From the NCBI GenBank assembly GCA_903820955.1, contig CAIJJH010000087.1:1-12257 (forward strand): 12,257 nt of DNA, written 5' to 3'. This DNA comes from an uncultured Micrococcales bacterium (GTDB taxonomy: Bacteria; Actinomycetota; Actinomycetes; Actinomycetales; Microbacteriaceae). Positions 133 to 6,674 of this stretch are shown piece after piece (position 1 is the stretch's first letter; each line of letters begins with the position of its first letter). A program made the position numbers and the translations under genes. Under the pieces are notes generated by a model. The model did not search any database, was not told the origin of the DNA, and saw nothing but the letters and a program-made list of their open reading frames with translations.

Positions 133-198
133 GGGTTCACTCTATTGGCATAGTCTCTATATATAGGCTTTGTGCGAAGCGAAATCCGAAGGGTTATT
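133..198. promoter_or_regulatory. Divergent promoter region with a palindromic TATATATA core
   Basis: The gap between the minus-strand membrane gene and the GH16 gene contains TATATATA at 158-165, which reads the same on both strands. For the plus strand, TTCACT at 136-141 could be a -35 box with 16-18 bp to a -10 of TATATA, placing transcription start near 170. No good -35 was found for the minus strand. The Shine-Dalgarno GAAGGG at 188-193 sits 5 nt before TTG 199 and supports that codon as the GH16 start. Confidence 0.45.
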
Positions 199-1356
199 TT
201 GTTTCGCAAACTTGCTTCAGCGCTCATAGCGGCATCCGTGATCATTGCCATTGCGGGCGCTTCGGCCCAAGCGGCAGTGGCTCCCAGAATCATCAAAGTG
301 GCGAGCCTTCCGGCAGCAATTACCCCCGGTGCAACCGTGAGAGTCACTCCTGCAGTTGCAAACCTGAAGGCAACGAGGACCTATGTTTGGTATCTGGCTG
401 GCCAACGAATCGCGACCGGCTCTGACAGATCGCTGAAGACCTTTGTCAGCGACAACGGATCCAGCCTGTTCGCAATCGAGTCGCTCAAGTTTGCAAATAA
501 GAAGGTGCTGACCTCGCGCACCAAAACTGTGACGGTGGGAACTGCTGTTCCTCCAAACTCGCCGGGTCCTCCAACCCCGACTTACCTTTGGGACCAAGAA
601 TTCAACGACTTTGCGGGATCGGGCGTCAGCACTTCGGACTTCAACCTAACCTCGCCTTACGGGACGGGTGACGGGAGTGGAATCGGCAATCCTGGCTGGG
701 GCAACAACGAGGCCGAATGGTATTTGCCAACTACCGCCAAAACCGACGGCCAGGGCAATCTAGTTCTCCCCGCCCAAAAAACCGTCGCGAACGACAACCT
801 GCAGTGCTACTACGGCACCTGCTCCTGGAAGAGCGCCAAGCTAATTACCCTCGGCAAAATCGGCTTCAAATACGGACGCATCGAGGTGCGCGCCAAGCTA
901 TCGGGTGGCCAGGGCCAGTGGCCGGCAATATGGCTTCTCGGCGCTAACCAACCCTCGGTCGGCTGGCCACAGTGTGGCGAAGTCGACATCGCCGAGTGGA
1001 AGGGTGACCTCCCGAACATGCTTTGGGGAACCCTTCACGGACCCGGTTACCTCAATCAGGGCAATACAACCTCGATAAACGGCGGTTTCACCGGTTACCA
1101 CACCTACCGAATCGACTGGATCCCAAACCAGATCACTTGGTATCTAGACGGCGTTCAATACCACCAGATGAAGGCGAGTGGAATCGGCGGAAACACCTGG
1201 GTCTTCAACTCCGAGCAGTACCTGATTCTCAACGTTGCGATGGGCGGAAATTTTGTGGGCAACCAGATTGGCAACTCGGTGACTCAAACATCGATGAGCG
1301 TTGACTGGATCCACTATTCGTCAATCGATGGTGTTGGAACGCTAATACGGCACTGA
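199..1356 (+). CDS. Secreted GH16-family endo-beta-glucanase (laminarinase-like) with N-terminal Ig-like domain
   Basis: This is a predicted exported glycoside hydrolase of family 16, likely cutting beta-1,3(1,4)-glucans such as laminarin outside the cell. From the chosen start the 385-residue product has a Sec signal peptide (cleavage likely after ASAQA, residue 25), an Ig-like beta domain (about 31-115, with VWYLAGQ), a Pro-rich linker (116-128), and a catalytic domain to the C-terminus. The GH16 signature is GEVDIAEW: E261 nucleophile, D263, E266 acid/base, in the E-x-D-x-x-E form of laminarinases. WPAIWLL and a tryptophan-rich cleft are also present. TTG 199 is preferred over GTG 172 because GAAGGG lies 5 nt upstream and the signal peptide then begins MFRKLAS. 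No C-terminal wall anchor is seen. Substrate is family-based inference. Confidence 0.9.
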   Translation: MFRKLASALIAASVIIAIAGASAQAAVAPRIIKVASLPAAITPGATVRVTPAVANLKATRTYVWYLAGQRIATGSDRSLKTFVSDNGSSLFAIESLKFANKKVLTSRTKTVTVGTAVPPNSPGPPTPTYLWDQEFNDFAGSGVSTSDFNLTSPYGTGDGSGIGNPGWGNNEAEWYLPTTAKTDGQGNLVLPAQKTVANDNLQCYYGTCSWKSAKLITLGKIGFKYGRIEVRAKLSGGQGQWPAIWLLGANQPSVGWPQCGEVDIAEWKGDLPNMLWGTLHGPGYLNQGNTTSINGGFTGYHTYRIDWIPNQITWYLDGVQYHQMKASGIGGNTWVFNSEQYLILNVAMGGNFVGNQIGNSVTQTSMSVDWIHYSSIDGVGTLIRH

Positions 1357-1412: not shown

Positions 1413-1466
1413 AGTCACGCTCATTTGCTGGCGAATTCACATCTTTTGGTTGGCCTTGGAGGTTAT

Positions 1467-4403
1467 GTGCGCAGAATACTTGCCACAATCGCCACCTTTC
1501 TTGCGGTAATTGCCACCGGTGTTCCTGCCGTTGCCGCCGACCCATTTGAAGTATCAGCGCCGGGGTCAATCGAATACGACCCAACTCTGGGTGGGTTTGC
1601 CGTTGCAGGAATCCAAATCACCGGTGCACCAACTTACATTCAGGTTGGGCTTACGCTCACCGACACCACCGGCGTTCAGGTGCCGGCAAACGATGACTTT
1701 CACATCGCCGTAGCTACAAGGTGTTCATTCAACAATTCTTGGTCCAATTCTGCAACTGGCGGAAATGTAGTTATCTCTGGTGACAACTCCACGAACGTTC
1801 TTTTGGCCGGAAACGCTGGCGATGTAATTGCGGCCCTTGAGAACACGTGGATCTTTGATCGCAACTCAAATTTTTGCACCGGTTCTGCTACTCAAAAACT
1901 TGGGCAAGGGCTTTTGTTTAGAAACCTGCAGGTATCGGCAATCGAGTCGGCACCGGGCCTGTTTTGGTCGCCAAGCACCCAGCACTACTACCAGCTAGCA
2001 ACTCAGACAACAGACGATGGCATGGGTCAACCCACAGACGACTTTGGCAACGTCACCGACTCGTCACGTTATTTTGTGCGCTGGAGCACAGCTAGAGCCG
2101 AAGCGAAGTCTGCGGTCTTGAGCATCGGTGGAAACACGCATCGCGGATACCTGGCGGCAATTACAACTCGCGATGAGTTTTCGTTTCTAAACGACAACGT
2201 CACCGGCGGTAGCGGAACCTTGTACCCGGCATGGGTTGGCGGCTCAGACGCCGCTACAGAAGGTGTGTGGAAGTGGGTTGACGGCCCCGAGGCCGAAAGG
2301 TTTGGCGGCGACACCCTTACTCGCTACATCGACCAGCAGGTTGCTCCAGACGGCAGGGTTCTCGAACAAGACTCAGAGGGGTCGTATTACCTAAACTTTC
2401 CGATGGACGGAGAGCCTTACCGGTCTTACATGAGCCAGGTAACGTTCTTCCGTGATTCGAGCGGCAACAAGGTTATTGATCCAGACACGGGTTATCCACT
2501 CGCGTTCAATTCAGGCCCCGACGGCGGATATTGCGCTGCGGCAAATAACGATATTTGGGCGGCTTGGGCAGACTTCAACGCCAATGGCCCAACCACTGAA
2601 GCAACTCCCTATGGCAGCTACGTTCTTTGCGACATGCAGTGGGGTTGGTGGGGCGCGCCGTATGTAGAACCAAAACTGCAAGATGCTGACGGAAACCTAG
2701 CTCCGACGACCGATGCGATCTACATAACCGAATGGGGATACCCTCTCGCTAACGCAGATGGAAACTATCGGGCCGTCGAACCAAATACATCTGACTTCAC
2801 ACAGCAGAGCGGTATCGTTCAAAACTTTGAGGGTGCAACTTTTTGGGGCCCAGATGCCGGAGACCCCGATACAGCGGTGCCAAACTTGTGCACCTCCCGA
2901 GGCATCCGCGGTGTTTGCACCCAGAACCAAAGACAAGTTGATGGCCAATGGGTAGACAACACCTATTACATCTATTGGTCAAATGGAAACCGTAGCTATG
3001 AACGCAACTGGGACGGGACAGGCGTAAAGCCCGGCGACGGCGTTTATGCGCCACAACCCGATAACTACAATGGCAATAATCCTGACGGCGAAGATGCACT
3101 AATCATCAACTGGTGTGCTCGCAACGGCGGTGTCGGCGCTAACTCCGACGCTATTGAGCAAAGCCTCTACGGAAATACTGGCTACTTTTGCACGCCGGGC
3201 TGGAACGACCTTACTGCGGGCGATTGGGCGTTCAGCTCATCCACCTACCCAAACGGTCACGCCTACGACACCCCGAATCAAATCGGTACAACCGACTACG
3301 TGATCGAGTATTGCGGCTATGCAGACGAAGCTTCATGTGCCGTAACTCAGGCGGCGACAGCGATGGTTTCATTCAGCATTGGTTCGCAAGGTTGCCCAAA
3401 GTCGGGAACCCCTAACTTGAGTGTCAGTTATTCAGCGGCGACTGTGACCTCGACCGATCTCAGTTCTCCGACCATGGTTACCGAAACCTTTGACAACATT
3501 CCAGCCGGCTGGATGTCCGATCAGATGACAGACGTTGGCTTTATCCAGGGAAGCACCTACATCGGCCCGGCTGGAGACGTTGGTGGCTCGGGTGGTACCG
3601 GCAGCTTTCCGAGCGCAGTCGACACAACTTTGACTCTTCCGACCACGGAATGCTATCTGGGATTCTGGTGGTCTGCAGGTAACGCTCAAAACTACGTCGA
3701 ACTAATGGACGCGGCGGGCAACGTGCTTGCCAGCTTCTCGGCCTCTGACCTTGTCAATGACCTGGGCGGTTGCCCAAACGCATACTGCGGAAACCCAGAC
3801 CATGGCTATGGTGCACCTGGAGAACTATTTGCTTATGTGCACATGCGATTACCTACCGGGTTTCAAAAGGTGCATTTCTACGGCCAAGGCTTTGAGTTCG
3901 ACAACGTATCGATCTCAATTTCGGTTCCGGGAGCGAGTTCTGGCGAGACCTTCCTGGGCGGAGGCGACCCAACACTTGTCGCACCTGAGGTTCTCTTGAT
4001 TGACCCAAGGTCTCATGCCATCAACTTGCCCGAGTTGCAGGTTTCGGGGACCTCTACTGCCACCGTATGTTTCATGCAGGTTGCGGATTCCTCGGGAGGA
4101 AGTCTGAGCGCACCTACGGTTTCAGTTTCTGCTCCAAACGCGACAGGCACAGCTCAGGCAGTTGGTGATGATTTTGTGATGAGTGGTTCAAACGCCGACG
4201 TGCAGAGTGACACCAAGCATCTGGTCATAAGTTCAAGTCAAAGGTTAGCTTCGGGTGGCCCGATTTTCTTCAAGGTCTCGGCGTCGAGCGGTGTCAGTGC
4301 TTCTGCCCAAAGTTGCAATACAGGTGTGAGTCGAGTTGTTGAGATCAGGCCGGTGGCCCTTGATCTTGTCTCAAATCTCGTTGCCCACTTCAACCACCAG
4401 TGA
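1467..4403 (+). CDS. Large secreted protein with C-type-lectin-like domain (QPD/WND) and beta-sandwich modules
   Basis: I know of no named gene for this 978-residue protein; it is probably a surface or secreted glycan-binding protein. The signal peptide begins MRRILATIATFLAV and ends PAVAA|D. A beta-rich domain follows (about 25-160). A C-type-lectin-like domain then spans about 167-620: HYY, GYLAAITT, AWVGGSD (255-261) and WKWVDGPE (268-275) form its first half; QPD (530-532), GEDALI (541-546), WND (579-581) and YVIEYCGY its second half. About 245 residues separate the halves. A module starting TETFDNIP and containing YLGFWWSAGN (about 670-820) and a Ser/Thr-rich tail follow. No LPXTG or terminal helix is visible. 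GTG 1467 is chosen because GGAGG lies 4 nt upstream; the longer frame from TTG 1425 has no such site. Its stop is 10 bp from the convergent OmpA-like gene. Confidence 0.75.
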   Translation: MRRILATIATFLAVIATGVPAVAADPFEVSAPGSIEYDPTLGGFAVAGIQITGAPTYIQVGLTLTDTTGVQVPANDDFHIAVATRCSFNNSWSNSATGGNVVISGDNSTNVLLAGNAGDVIAALENTWIFDRNSNFCTGSATQKLGQGLLFRNLQVSAIESAPGLFWSPSTQHYYQLATQTTDDGMGQPTDDFGNVTDSSRYFVRWSTARAEAKSAVLSIGGNTHRGYLAAITTRDEFSFLNDNVTGGSGTLYPAWVGGSDAATEGVWKWVDGPEAERFGGDTLTRYIDQQVAPDGRVLEQDSEGSYYLNFPMDGEPYRSYMSQVTFFRDSSGNKVIDPDTGYPLAFNSGPDGGYCAAANNDIWAAWADFNANGPTTEATPYGSYVLCDMQWGWWGAPYVEPKLQDADGNLAPTTDAIYITEWGYPLANADGNYRAVEPNTSDFTQQSGIVQNFEGATFWGPDAGDPDTAVPNLCTSRGIRGVCTQNQRQVDGQWVDNTYYIYWSNGNRSYERNWDGTGVKPGDGVYAPQPDNYNGNNPDGEDALIINWCARNGGVGANSDAIEQSLYGNTGYFCTPGWNDLTAGDWAFSSSTYPNGHAYDTPNQIGTTDYVIEYCGYADEASCAVTQAATAMVSFSIGSQGCPKSGTPNLSVSYSAATVTSTDLSSPTMVTETFDNIPAGWMSDQMTDVGFIQGSTYIGPAGDVGGSGGTGSFPSAVDTTLTLPTTECYLGFWWSAGNAQNYVELMDAAGNVLASFSASDLVNDLGGCPNAYCGNPDHGYGAPGELFAYVHMRLPTGFQKVHFYGQGFEFDNVSISISVPGASSGETFLGGGDPTLVAPEVLLIDPRSHAINLPELQVSGTSTATVCFMQVADSSGGSLSAPTVSVSAPNATGTAQAVGDDFVMSGSNADVQSDTKHLVISSSQRLASGGPIFFKVSASSGVSASAQSCNTGVSRVVEIRPVALDLVSNLVAHFNHQ

Positions 4404-4413
4404 GAGTTGTATC

Positions 4414-5148
4414 TCAGTCGTGGACCGAAAAGGCGACCTTATCGACGGTAGTTGACTTGATTTCGGTACTCGTGAAGTCCGAGAAAACCAAGTTGAGTGT
4501 CACCCCAGTGATCGTCTTGTTGAGTGTGTGGCCAAGCTCGGCTCCGCTGGCATCCATCAGGTAAACGTCTAAGAGCTTGCCTTTGCAGTTCAAGCTGATG
4601 TCGCTCAGCGCCATTTGTGAAAAGTACAGATCAGAACGAAGTAGCCGGGACCTCATTTTGACGATGATGTTGTTATCGCAGGTTCCAACAGTGTTGTCTC
4701 CGCTGCCTCCGCCCGTGCCTCCGCCGGTCGGAACGCTACCGTTTCTCGCAAGGGTGATTGTGACTCTCCGAGAGTTGGGATTCTGTGAGGAGCTTGGAAC
4801 ACCTGCAGTGCTTGCGATTCTGATGTTGGGCTGAAGCGCTTTAATGAATTTGCAGGAAATCTTGGCTCTGGTAACCGCCAATTTCTTCATGAAGGCTGCC
4901 GAGCGGTTTGAGACGTTGTATCCGGTGAACCCGAAGCAACTGACTTGGGTGAAGTCGGGGTTCAAGGCCAACCAGCCCTGAATCGCAGTTCGCATGTCGG
5001 TCGATAGCGAGGTCTTTTCAAACTCAAAACCGGTAAAGGTGCGGCTGATGGTCAAAATATCAGCCCGCGCGTTTGGTGCTCCAAGAGCGAGTAGGCCAGC
5101 AAACGAGAGCGCTAGAGCAGTAAGCACAGCAGTTAGTTTCGCCCTCAT
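4414..5148 (-). CDS. Exported OmpA-like protein with C-terminal Cys domain shared with the neighbouring small exported protein
   Basis: The 244-residue product has a Sec signal peptide (MRAKLTAVLT..., cleavage after APNARA, residue 29). Residues about 35-134 look like a divergent OmpA-type peptidoglycan-associating domain: FGFTGYN, then LAVTRAKISCKFIKAL and NSRRVTITL match the family's 'LS..RA..V...L' and 'NRRVEI.L' features. A Gly-rich linker (142-150) leads to a domain (154-244) starting CDNNII, with LSDISLNCKGK and ending VDKVAFSVHD. That domain resembles the body of the protein encoded at 6104-6604. It is the last gene of the cassette, 21 bp after the signal peptidase stop, with GGAG upstream of the ATG. 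I infer a wall-anchored adaptor or cap for a polymer of the small protein. The OmpA call is moderate; the role is unproven. Confidence 0.7.
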   Translation of the reverse strand: MRAKLTAVLTALALSFAGLLALGAPNARADILTISRTFTGFEFEKTSLSTDMRTAIQGWLALNPDFTQVSCFGFTGYNVSNRSAAFMKKLAVTRAKISCKFIKALQPNIRIASTAGVPSSSQNPNSRRVTITLARNGSVPTGGGTGGGSGDNTVGTCDNNIIVKMRSRLLRSDLYFSQMALSDISLNCKGKLLDVYLMDASGAELGHTLNKTITGVTLNLVFSDFTSTEIKSTTVDKVAFSVHD

Positions 5149-5169
5149 AAAGAACTCCGTCGAGTTTTT

Positions 5170-6033
5170 CTAATCAAAGGGTAGCCAAAGAACTCCCACG
5201 AATGGAACCACGAATCGAATCGGTCCTTCTACGTCGGCGCTAGAAATCAGAAGTTTGCCGATATTGGCACTCACCGTGTAAGTGTGACCCTTGATCGCTT
5301 CAACCCGAACGAGGTTTTTGTGCCCGGCAACGGTGGCTATGGCGAGGTCACCAATTTTCGCGGCAGAATTCGGGGCGACTAACACCAGTGACTGGTTTGA
5401 AGCCCCGACTGGTAATTGAGGCCCGACCTGGGGATGTTCAAATTTGGCTATTCCAGCGAGAGCTAGTCCTGTGATTATTAGCCAGATTGCTAAGAGCGAC
5501 AGCGCGGATCTAGCTAGCCACTTGCCAACACGGCCTCGACCAGCCACCCAGTCACCGGCTTTCTTGAAGCCGGTCTTTAGGTAGTCGCGACTGAAGTAAA
5601 GGACTGCAATTAGAGAAATAATCACAAACAAAATGAGCGGGCTAGCCAGTTTTCCGGGACCTGGGATCCAGAAGTTGACCACACCTAAGACATCGGATGC
5701 TGCCACGGATGTGGGGTCAGCAGACATATTGTTATCGCCCTGGAATGTGTAACCGGAAGCTGAGCCTCCTGCAATTACACGGTGAACCACGTCGTCGGTT
5801 GGTTTCCCCTGCAAATCGCGGGCATGGTAAATAGCGATGTCACCTATGTTTGGTTTGAGCCAGTTTGCAGAAACCACCAGGTCACCTTGGTTGATGGTTC
5901 CCTGCATGGAGTTGGTTTGGACGATTCTTAGGCTGATGACGCCGAGCAAGCTAGCCAGCGCAGTCGCCACCATCAGGGAGCTCAAAACGTACGCGGCGAT
6001 TCGCCCAAAACGCAGACGCTTGGTAGAGGTCAT
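5170..6033 (-). CDS. SipW-like (ER-type, S26B) signal peptidase I with a second, degenerate peptidase-like domain
   Basis: This is a membrane serine protease predicted to remove leader peptides from exported proteins. Of its 287 residues, helix 1 covers about 12-35. The catalytic region follows: TNSMQGTINQGDLVV carries Ser42, NIGDIAIYH is the conserved strand, and VVHRVIA carries His84. The Ser-His pair, rather than Ser-Lys, marks the SipW/Sec11/archaeal branch. FQGDNN (97-102) and SDVLGVV (113-119) complete the domain. Two more helices lie at about 131-147 and 176-196. The tail (about 198-287) repeats the peptidase pattern without catalytic residues. The start ATG has GGAG 5 nt upstream. Its likely substrate is the product of the gene immediately before it, since SipW enzymes are often encoded beside their substrates. 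Substrate pairing is inferred. Confidence 0.88.
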   Translation of the reverse strand: MTSTKRLRFGRIAAYVLSSLMVATALASLLGVISLRIVQTNSMQGTINQGDLVVSANWLKPNIGDIAIYHARDLQGKPTDDVVHRVIAGGSASGYTFQGDNNMSADPTSVAASDVLGVVNFWIPGPGKLASPLILFVIISLIAVLYFSRDYLKTGFKKAGDWVAGRGRVGKWLARSALSLLAIWLIITGLALAGIAKFEHPQVGPQLPVGASNQSLVLVAPNSAAKIGDLAIATVAGHKNLVRVEAIKGHTYTVSANIGKLLISSADVEGPIRFVVPFVGVLWLPFD

Positions 6034-6053
6034 CTCAGCTCCGACTTAATTGG

Positions 6054-6089
6054 TTGGTGGTGCTGTTCACACGAGAACAGCACCACCAA
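6054..6089 (-). terminator. Strong 15-bp hairpin between the small exported protein gene and the signal peptidase gene
   Basis: Positions 6054-6068 and 6075-6089 are perfect inverted repeats (TTGGTGGTGCTGTTC and its complement) around a 6-nt loop. The hairpin lies 14 nt after the stop of the upstream gene and 20 nt before the peptidase ATG, clear of its GGAG. No T-run follows on either strand, so it is not a textbook intrinsic terminator. It may act as an attenuator, a U-less terminator or a 3'-end stabiliser, lowering expression of the two downstream genes relative to the first. Confidence 0.6.
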
Positions 6090-6103
6090 ACTCAAAAGGT
6101 TTA

Positions 6104-6604
6104 CTAGCTGGTGGCTAGAGCAATCTTGGTGACCTGCGAAGAGTCACAACCGGCGGCAACCGGGATTGTGATCGTTGCAGTTTGACCGGTTGTGATTGCG
6201 GTTGCACCCAGGGTGAAGCCGTCATCGCCCGAGGTCAAGGTCGCGGCGTTGGTGGTGAGAGTCGGGCTTGCGATTGTGGTTGCGCCGTCGACTCCGCAGT
6301 TACCAGATGGGCCTACAACAACAACCTTGACGGTCTTGCCGTTGCAGGTGTCTGCGATGCCAGAGAGCACGATGCTCGAAAGCTCGAACTTGCTATCTGT
6401 CGATGAGTAAGCCTGGTTTAGTGCCGTAGTTATAGCCGAGTCACATGAGGTGGTGCTTGCGACGCCGGCACCGAACTCGATGGTTCCCGAGTTAATCGTG
6501 ATCGTGTTCGAAGCAAAAACAGCGCCAACAGAGGTAACTAGGGCGACACCGCTGATGATCAAAAACTTTTTGCTTCGCTTGTTCTTTGTTTCGTTCGAGG
6601 TCAT
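6104..6604 (-). CDS. Small exported protein with SipW-type leader (TasA/camelysin-like or pilin-like subunit)
   Basis: The 166-residue product starts with a charged segment (NKRSKK) and a hydrophobic helix (about 14-31) ending GAVFAS. Next comes NTITINSGTIEFGAG, which resembles the 'S.NT..AGTLDL' stretch after the leader of SipW-dependent proteins such as TasA. The rest (about 50-166) is Thr/Ser/Gly/Val-rich with Cys54, Cys87, Cys103 and Cys153, suited to a beta-sheet fold with disulfides. No catalytic motif is visible. It has a strong ribosome-binding site (AAAGGA) and a good promoter, and heads the operon whose next gene encodes a SipW-like peptidase. I infer a secreted, possibly fibre-forming structural protein. 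Overall homology to TasA was not tested, so the name describes the leader type only. Confidence 0.75.
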   Translation of the reverse strand: MTSNETKNKRSKKFLIISGVALVTSVGAVFASNTITINSGTIEFGAGVASTTSCDSAITTALNQAYSSTDSKFELSSIVLSGIADTCNGKTVKVVVVGPSGNCGVDGATTIASPTLTTNAATLTSGDDGFTLGATAITTGQTATITIPVAAGCDSSQVTKIALATS

Positions 6605-6646: not shown

Positions 6647-6674
6647 ATCTTACAATGTCAGATAAAGAAGTCAA
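6647..6674 (-). promoter_or_regulatory. Housekeeping-type promoter for the exported-protein/signal-peptidase cassette
   Basis: On the minus strand TTGACT (6674-6669) and TAAGAT (6652-6647) are separated by 16 bp, close to the sigma-70/SigA consensus. Start would fall near 6640, giving a leader of about 36 nt that includes AAAGGA before ATG 6604. It is the best promoter match noticed in the window, consistent with strong expression of the small exported protein. Confidence 0.6.

Follow-up and report, generated by a model that had tools for sequence, protein, structure and literature searches.

What do three adjacent minus-strand genes build in a bacterium whose draft genome holds little more than a million bases? 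The genes occupy positions 4414-6604 of contig CAIJJH010000087.1 from an uncultured Micrococcales bacterium of the Microbacteriaceae; the window, by which we mean the whole stretch of DNA analyzed, is this entire 12,257-bp contig, one of 202 in an assembly of 1.27 Mb. They encode a 166-amino-acid (aa) protein with a SipW-type leader (gene 1), a 287-aa Ser-His signal peptidase (gene 2) and a 244-aa exported OmpA-like protein (gene 3), an observation first made in a sequence-only reading of the locus and confirmed here. We propose that they form a cassette dedicated to the secretion and anchoring of a surface polymer built from beta-sandwich subunits, and we put the probability of this reading at roughly 55%. 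The computed evidence for it consists of the gene content, a domain common to genes 1 and 3, the type of the peptidase, a separate housekeeping LepB, the conservation of the trio, and a recurrent pairing of subunit and peptidase with changing partners. Genomes and loci are referred to by the G and L numbers given to them in this analysis.

The central observation is that genes 1 and 3 end in the same domain, here called the Cys domain. A profile built from 11 subunits, with no gene 3 inside, found the C-terminus of gene 3 in the window's genome with an E-value of 6.1e-8. When four gene-1 proteins were aligned by hhalign with four gene-3 C-termini, the E-value was 4.9e-5 (probability 68); with the more diverse set of 11 subunits it was 7.6e-7 (probability 92). 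A Cys-domain profile of 23 subunits matched gene 3 of three relatives at 5.8e-8 to 1.8e-6 and that of the window at 1.1e-4, and gene 1 alone as the query found gene 3 of G044 at 2.8e-5. In the predicted models of the two proteins, compared without superposition, the strands appear to succeed one another similarly. Given these profile matches, hhalign scores and similar strand order, we consider the common domain sound. The sequence-only reading had claimed it and had asked for the two folds to be compared; the claim stands, with homology coming from the profiles and the resemblance of the models extending to strand order.

The subunit itself resembles nothing with a name in the libraries that we searched. 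Its cysteines, Cys54 and Cys87 with a second pair, Cys103 and Cys153, are kept in an alignment of four genus members. Among 23 aligned subunits, no Pfam or NCBIfam family was common to more than two, even at E-values up to 1. Several isolated matches were set aside. Those of gene 1 to the Pfam GHMP-kinase (E = 0.061) and decarboxylase (E = 0.016) models were taken as chance, and the NCBIfam match to the putative pilus protein FilA (E = 9.6e-4) was not built on because it was confined to one of the 23 subunits. The subunit profile also matched PDB chains of viral fusion glycoproteins (best E = 1.1e-4), a result that was rejected because the construct behind it holds the matching stretch twice, each copy having an i-Evalue of 1.3, and the other matches were at 0.2 or worse; a search of viral structures gave no match at 0.001 or better. 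The subunit family therefore appears to lack a name in Pfam and NCBIfam, and its newness is judged from these two curated libraries.

Gene 2 belongs to the signal peptidases in which Ser-His replaces Ser-Lys, and the four residues listed for it in Table 1 are invariant in 6/6 aligned members. In a profile search of structure chains, the best solved relatives of the peptidase alignment were SEC11A and SEC11C. Gene 2 scored 41.2 bits against the archaeal model sigpep_I_arch (TIGR02228; cut-off 51.85), 25.1 bits against the bacterial signal peptidase model (cut-off 47) and 16.6 bits against NF046067, the Bacillus SipW equivalog (cut-off 190), and so lies below all three cut-offs. Across 15 genomes scanned with sigpep_I_arch, the cassette peptidase exceeded the cut-off in 13 and was the sole protein to do so in 10. 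All four genomes that carry the trio also possess an ordinary LepB on another contig, over the cut-off for bacterial signal peptidase I. Two of these carriers have, in 345-aa open frames, a second ER-type signal peptidase over the cut-off (G032:C12:4648-5049 and G040:C17:6654-7058). The C-terminal extension of the window's peptidase (Table 1) is lacking in the peptidases of three genus relatives, which are 154-156 aa long; a suggestive register and a BLASTP E-value of 0.65 are weak hints of a degenerate duplicate of the first half.

The predicted fold of gene 3 is OmpA-like, with 9uu2, 3td5 and FopA1 (6u83) as structural relatives. Compared to known OmpA domains, it has an invariant Cys pair of its own, and Pfam OmpA models match none of the four gene-3 proteins at E-values up to 10. 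NCBIfam gave no match to gene 3 either, and whether a TapA model is included in that library was not established. The Asp of the OmpA motif GHTD and an Arg hold diaminopimelate, and their positions in gene 3 were placed by eye. The Arg (Arg94) is invariant in the four gene-3 partners, while the position of the motif's Asp is occupied by Gly. Peptidoglycan binding by gene 3 is therefore uncertain: of the "peptidoglycan-binding adaptor" envisaged by the sequence-only reading, the OmpA-like fold and the Arg were recovered, and the Asp and a Pfam OmpA match were not. The absent Asp, like the lack of an evident LPXTG or lipobox by eye, would suit another role for gene 3, that of a helper in secretion or folding which might, for instance, hold unfolded subunits or the peptidase on the wall side, with any polymer being free. 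We regard this as improbable, as the Cys domain lies at the far end of the OmpA-like module, and of the collagen-like module described below, where it is suited to outward presentation.

The three genes are conserved as a group. A set of 119 related genomes that includes the window's yielded gene 1 in 6, gene 3 in 16 and gene 2 in 23; 12 of the 16 gene-3 genomes matched mainly through the OmpA-like part, and the gene-2 matches were mostly just distant peptidases. All three genes lie side by side, always in one order, in 4/67 genomes of the genus (the window's, G032, G040 and G044), and these are all of the genus genomes with a gene-1 profile match. G032, G040 and G044 share one genomic context, with what look by eye to be a TetR-like gene upstream and, downstream, a convergent DCC-like gene, and the context of the window differs. 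The order of the trio is thus kept across two contexts, which suggests that the three genes move or are retained together. A lack of conservation in relatives had been named beforehand as one outcome that would refute the sequence-only reading; the reading passed this test, the order being the same in 4/4 carriers. A fifth genus genome, G058, encodes a collagen-like protein of 406 aa with the Cys domain at its C-terminus (A5 profile, E = 8e-9). This protein is a bridge between the OmpA-like partners and the collagen-like partners found elsewhere.

Outside the genus the pairing recurs with other partners. A scan of named genomes found 11 loci, three of them in the genus (two Micrococcales metagenome-assembled genomes and one from Rhodoluna); the records of the other eight are named Planktophila, Nanopelagicaceae, or just actinobacterium or Actinomycetota. 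Profile matches were obtained in 10/394 genomes of a class-wide sample and 7/396 of a phylum-wide sample, the window's genome being in both. In the stretches read, a subunit lay beside a related peptidase in 13 of the 16 distinct genomes matched by subunit profiles. Under generous assumptions, the chance of such linkage is 4-9 percent per genome; the product of these chances was formed over the 13 linked genomes and leaves out the other three.

Four larger loci (L057, L058, L061 and L062) have tandem subunits followed by a related peptidase and then, in 4/4, by a roughly 480-560-aa membrane protein with DIPLLTWERG near its start (L057:7712-9289). The paralogous subunits number three in L062 and four in L057 and L058. 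The membrane protein is a candidate assembly factor; that of L057, the sole one of the four tested, has no Pfam match. Where the contig continues (L057, L061 and L062), there is also an exported protein in which a collagen-like stretch and a Gly-rich linker precede a C-terminal Cys domain. Of the two tested against Pfam Collagen, L061 matched (E = 1.7e-10) and L057 did not. By profile, a collagen-like partner with the Cys domain accompanies a peptidase at six loci (L057, L061, L098, L099, L100 and L103); at L059 the collagen-like partner has no peptidase in the stretch read, and the Cys domain of the L062 partner was seen by eye alone. A Cys domain seen by eye in L062:5582-6493 and, in an alignment, in gene three of family f10 (L007:66-842, L108 and L109) did not come up with the profiles at the thresholds used. 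In the three phylum-level relatives tested (L139, L141 and L145), the gene between subunit and peptidase encodes a protein that matches Pfam CBM96 (E = 2.7e-15 to 3.2e-20) and whose leader appears similar by eye. The cassettes of other Actinomycetota are alike in clustering a subunit, a peptidase and an exported partner, and they differ in the partner, which is either collagen-like with the Cys domain or a CBM96 protein in which none was found. Judged from their sequences, these related gene sets may represent an unnamed way to build and anchor a surface polymer.

How might such a cassette work? From these genes we infer cleavage, disulfide formation, donor-strand polymerization, anchoring and wall binding. 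The leader of gene 1 is presumably a poor substrate for LepB and would be cut by the cassette's own Ser-His peptidase. The cut would free a mature chain comprising a short strand-forming stretch (NTITINSG..EFGAG) and then a beta-sandwich pinned by disulfides. Subunits would link, most plausibly by each lending its N-terminal strand to a neighbor; linkage of this donor-strand kind is known for TasA and for archaeal bundling pili. Gene 3 would be exported separately via the ordinary Sec/LepB route and held at the wall by its OmpA-like domain. Its Cys domain, preceded by a Gly-rich linker instead of an N-terminal strand, would be the acceptor to which the first subunit attaches, thereby anchoring or initiating the polymer.

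The fibre in this scheme is putative, and a serious alternative is that gene 1 is displayed as a monomer or in a lattice: it would be an abundant protein, secreted or retained at the membrane, that docks domain-to-domain on gene 3 without forming a fibre. Several relatives outside the genus, L059, L060 and L064 among them, have long extra C-terminal regions that are adhesin-like rather than typical of repeating units, and no pilin matches the gene-1 model convincingly, both of which would suit display. On the other hand, the linked extra peptidase, the tandem subunits and a same-domain partner devoid of an N-terminal strand fit better with subunits and a cap. We consider display a real possibility, with a chance of being correct that is well short of even.

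Several further observations weigh against a polymer-building cassette. The trio is rare in the genus, as the count above indicates, and in G058 neither subunit nor peptidase was found in the 19 kb around the collagen-like Cys-domain protein. Three of the 16 genomes matched by subunit profiles, G259, G417 and G425, have subunits without a peptidase in the stretches read (for G425, three loci only). The peptidases of the window and of G040 are the ones that fall below the sigpep_I_arch cut-off, and the Gly in the diaminopimelate motif of gene 3 counts here as well. The model of gene 1 is of middling quality (mean predicted local distance difference test score, pLDDT, 69.5; predicted template modeling score, pTM, 0.60), its N-terminus being poorly predicted, for which there are many possible causes, the leader among them. 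Comparison of this model with the PDB (Foldseek, VIA-align) gave no convincing fold match; TasA was absent among the matches listed, an absence that excludes nothing. Finally, the CBM96 proteins that act as partners in other lineages gave no Cys-domain match by profile, and the idea of the same domain on the anchor therefore does not cover them.

The features of the locus are collected in Table 1. The sequence-only reading had placed the three genes under one good promoter, a claim that was not upheld: one promoter-like site was found, compared to a mean of 1.5 in shuffled sequences. The hairpin in the gap between genes 1 and 2 is unusually stable (z = -5.18; 0/200 shuffles equally good), and the same two genes are only 3-4 bases apart in G032, G040 and G044. 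A classical terminator at this position is unsupported, as the terminator search lists none there. It could be speculated that the hairpin may stabilize the transcript of gene 1 or reduce expression of gene 2, so that many subunits are made for each peptidase, although this is a guess.

Table 1. Positions and basis of the features described (window coordinates unless a genome is named).
Feature	Position	Strand	Basis
Gene 1, 166-aa putative subunit: SipW-type leader and predicted two-cysteine beta-sandwich domain	6104..6604	-	Open reading frame, alignment, predicted model
SipW-type leader of gene 1, residues 1-31	6512..6604	-	Cleavage near FAS/N predicted by eye
EFG(A/Q)G motif and Cys domain of gene 1, residues 43-166	6107..6478	-	Alignment, model
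Gene 2, Ser-His ER/archaeal-type signal peptidase, 287 aa	5170..6033	-	Ser42, His84, Asp100, Asp106
C-terminal extension of gene 2, ~140 residues, with second hydrophobic segment	5173..5598	-	Alignment
Gene 3, 244-aa exported partner: Sec leader, OmpA-like domain, Gly linker, Cys domain	4414..5148	-	Open reading frame, model, fold search
OmpA-like domain of gene 3, residues 31-137, own conserved Cys pair	4738..5058	-	Predicted fold
C-terminal Cys domain of gene 3, common with gene 1, residues 149-243	4420..4704	-	Profiles
Promoter-like site TTGACT-16-TAAGAT upstream of gene 1	6647..6674	-	9/12 matches; weak evidence
Perfect 15-bp hairpin without T-run, gene 1/gene 2 gap (70 bases)	6054..6089	-	Folding energy
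G058:C4 (L148), collagen-like Cys-domain protein, then 570-aa membrane protein	12319-13536; 10607-12316	-	Profile

Two further genes of the contig were noted. An exported 992-aa protein (1425-4403, plus strand) carries the Npun_F0296 exosortase-dependent surface-protein domain (NCBIfam, 83.5 bits; cut-off 29) and has a C-type-lectin Pfam match below the cut-off. The gene adjoining it (172-1356, plus strand) encodes an apparently exported family-16 glycoside hydrolase (Pfam E = 2.4e-21).

Some freshwater actinobacteria devote several genes to this cassette although their genomes span only 1.1-1.5 Mb. If its products are anchored fibres, they would constitute a second, sequence-unrelated answer to the problem solved by SipW and TasA, in which a special signal peptidase serves a special substrate. 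They would also give a testable way into the question of how appendages are built by small planktonic Gram-positive cells, and how such cells attach or resist grazing, and proteins now without any annotation would gain one. A broader proposal, which we put forward tentatively and consider less likely than not, is that Actinomycetota possess a widespread, uncatalogued class of surface polymer with its own ER-type peptidase, disulfide-pinned beta-sandwich subunits that polymerize through the N-terminal strand, and a same-domain cap or anchor on interchangeable modules (OmpA-like or collagen-like), with CBM96 partners in other lineages, and that it is parallel to TasA rather than descended from it.

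The system with which the cassette invites comparison is tapA-sipW-tasA of Bacillus, in which SipW-type leaders occur with a linked Ser-His peptidase beside the housekeeping one and a partner is thought to anchor or start the polymer. One explanation of the trio is an ordinary operon of this kind that has diverged in sequence. The overall logic is the same, and 6/6 peptidases in the alignment show a match to the SipW model of Bacillus (best E = 4.1e-13; the window's, 0.0045). However, the TasA/camelysin family PF12389 (Peptidase_M73) matched 0/23 aligned subunits at E-values up to 1. In a search of the genus, with a positive B. subtilis control, it exceeded its cut-off in 1/67 genomes, and none of the three matches at E-values up to 0.1 was a trio gene. 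Moreover, we know of no OmpA-like part in tapA-sipW-tasA operons. Membership of gene 1 in the TasA family was therefore rejected on sequence grounds, and we consider a diverged TasA operon very unlikely. The one PF12389 match over the cut-off (G042:C28:15417-15713, L122) lies in a genome that does not carry the trio.

The cassette thus most likely works like SipW/TasA, by analogy, without being a member. The "actinobacterial equivalent" of the sequence-only reading is a fair description. The analogy is supported insofar as a Ser-His peptidase additional to LepB is encoded next to a protein whose leader is of SipW type; membership is not supported, and the theme is wider than that reading assumed. 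Like tapA-sipW-tasA, the cassette combines a SipW-type leader, a linked Ser-His peptidase in addition to the housekeeping Lep, and an exported partner. In contrast to it, the subunit is not PF12389, the peptidase is under the SipW cut-off, and the partner joins an OmpA-like part to a copy of the subunit's domain. With the archaeal and ER-type signal peptidase I (TIGR02228, SEC11), gene 2 shares the Ser-His arrangement, but it lies below the cut-off of that model and has an extended C-terminus. SipW-type cassettes are a kind already known; what appears to be new within that kind is a subunit family for which no name was found in Pfam or NCBIfam, together with a partner bearing a copy of the subunit's domain.
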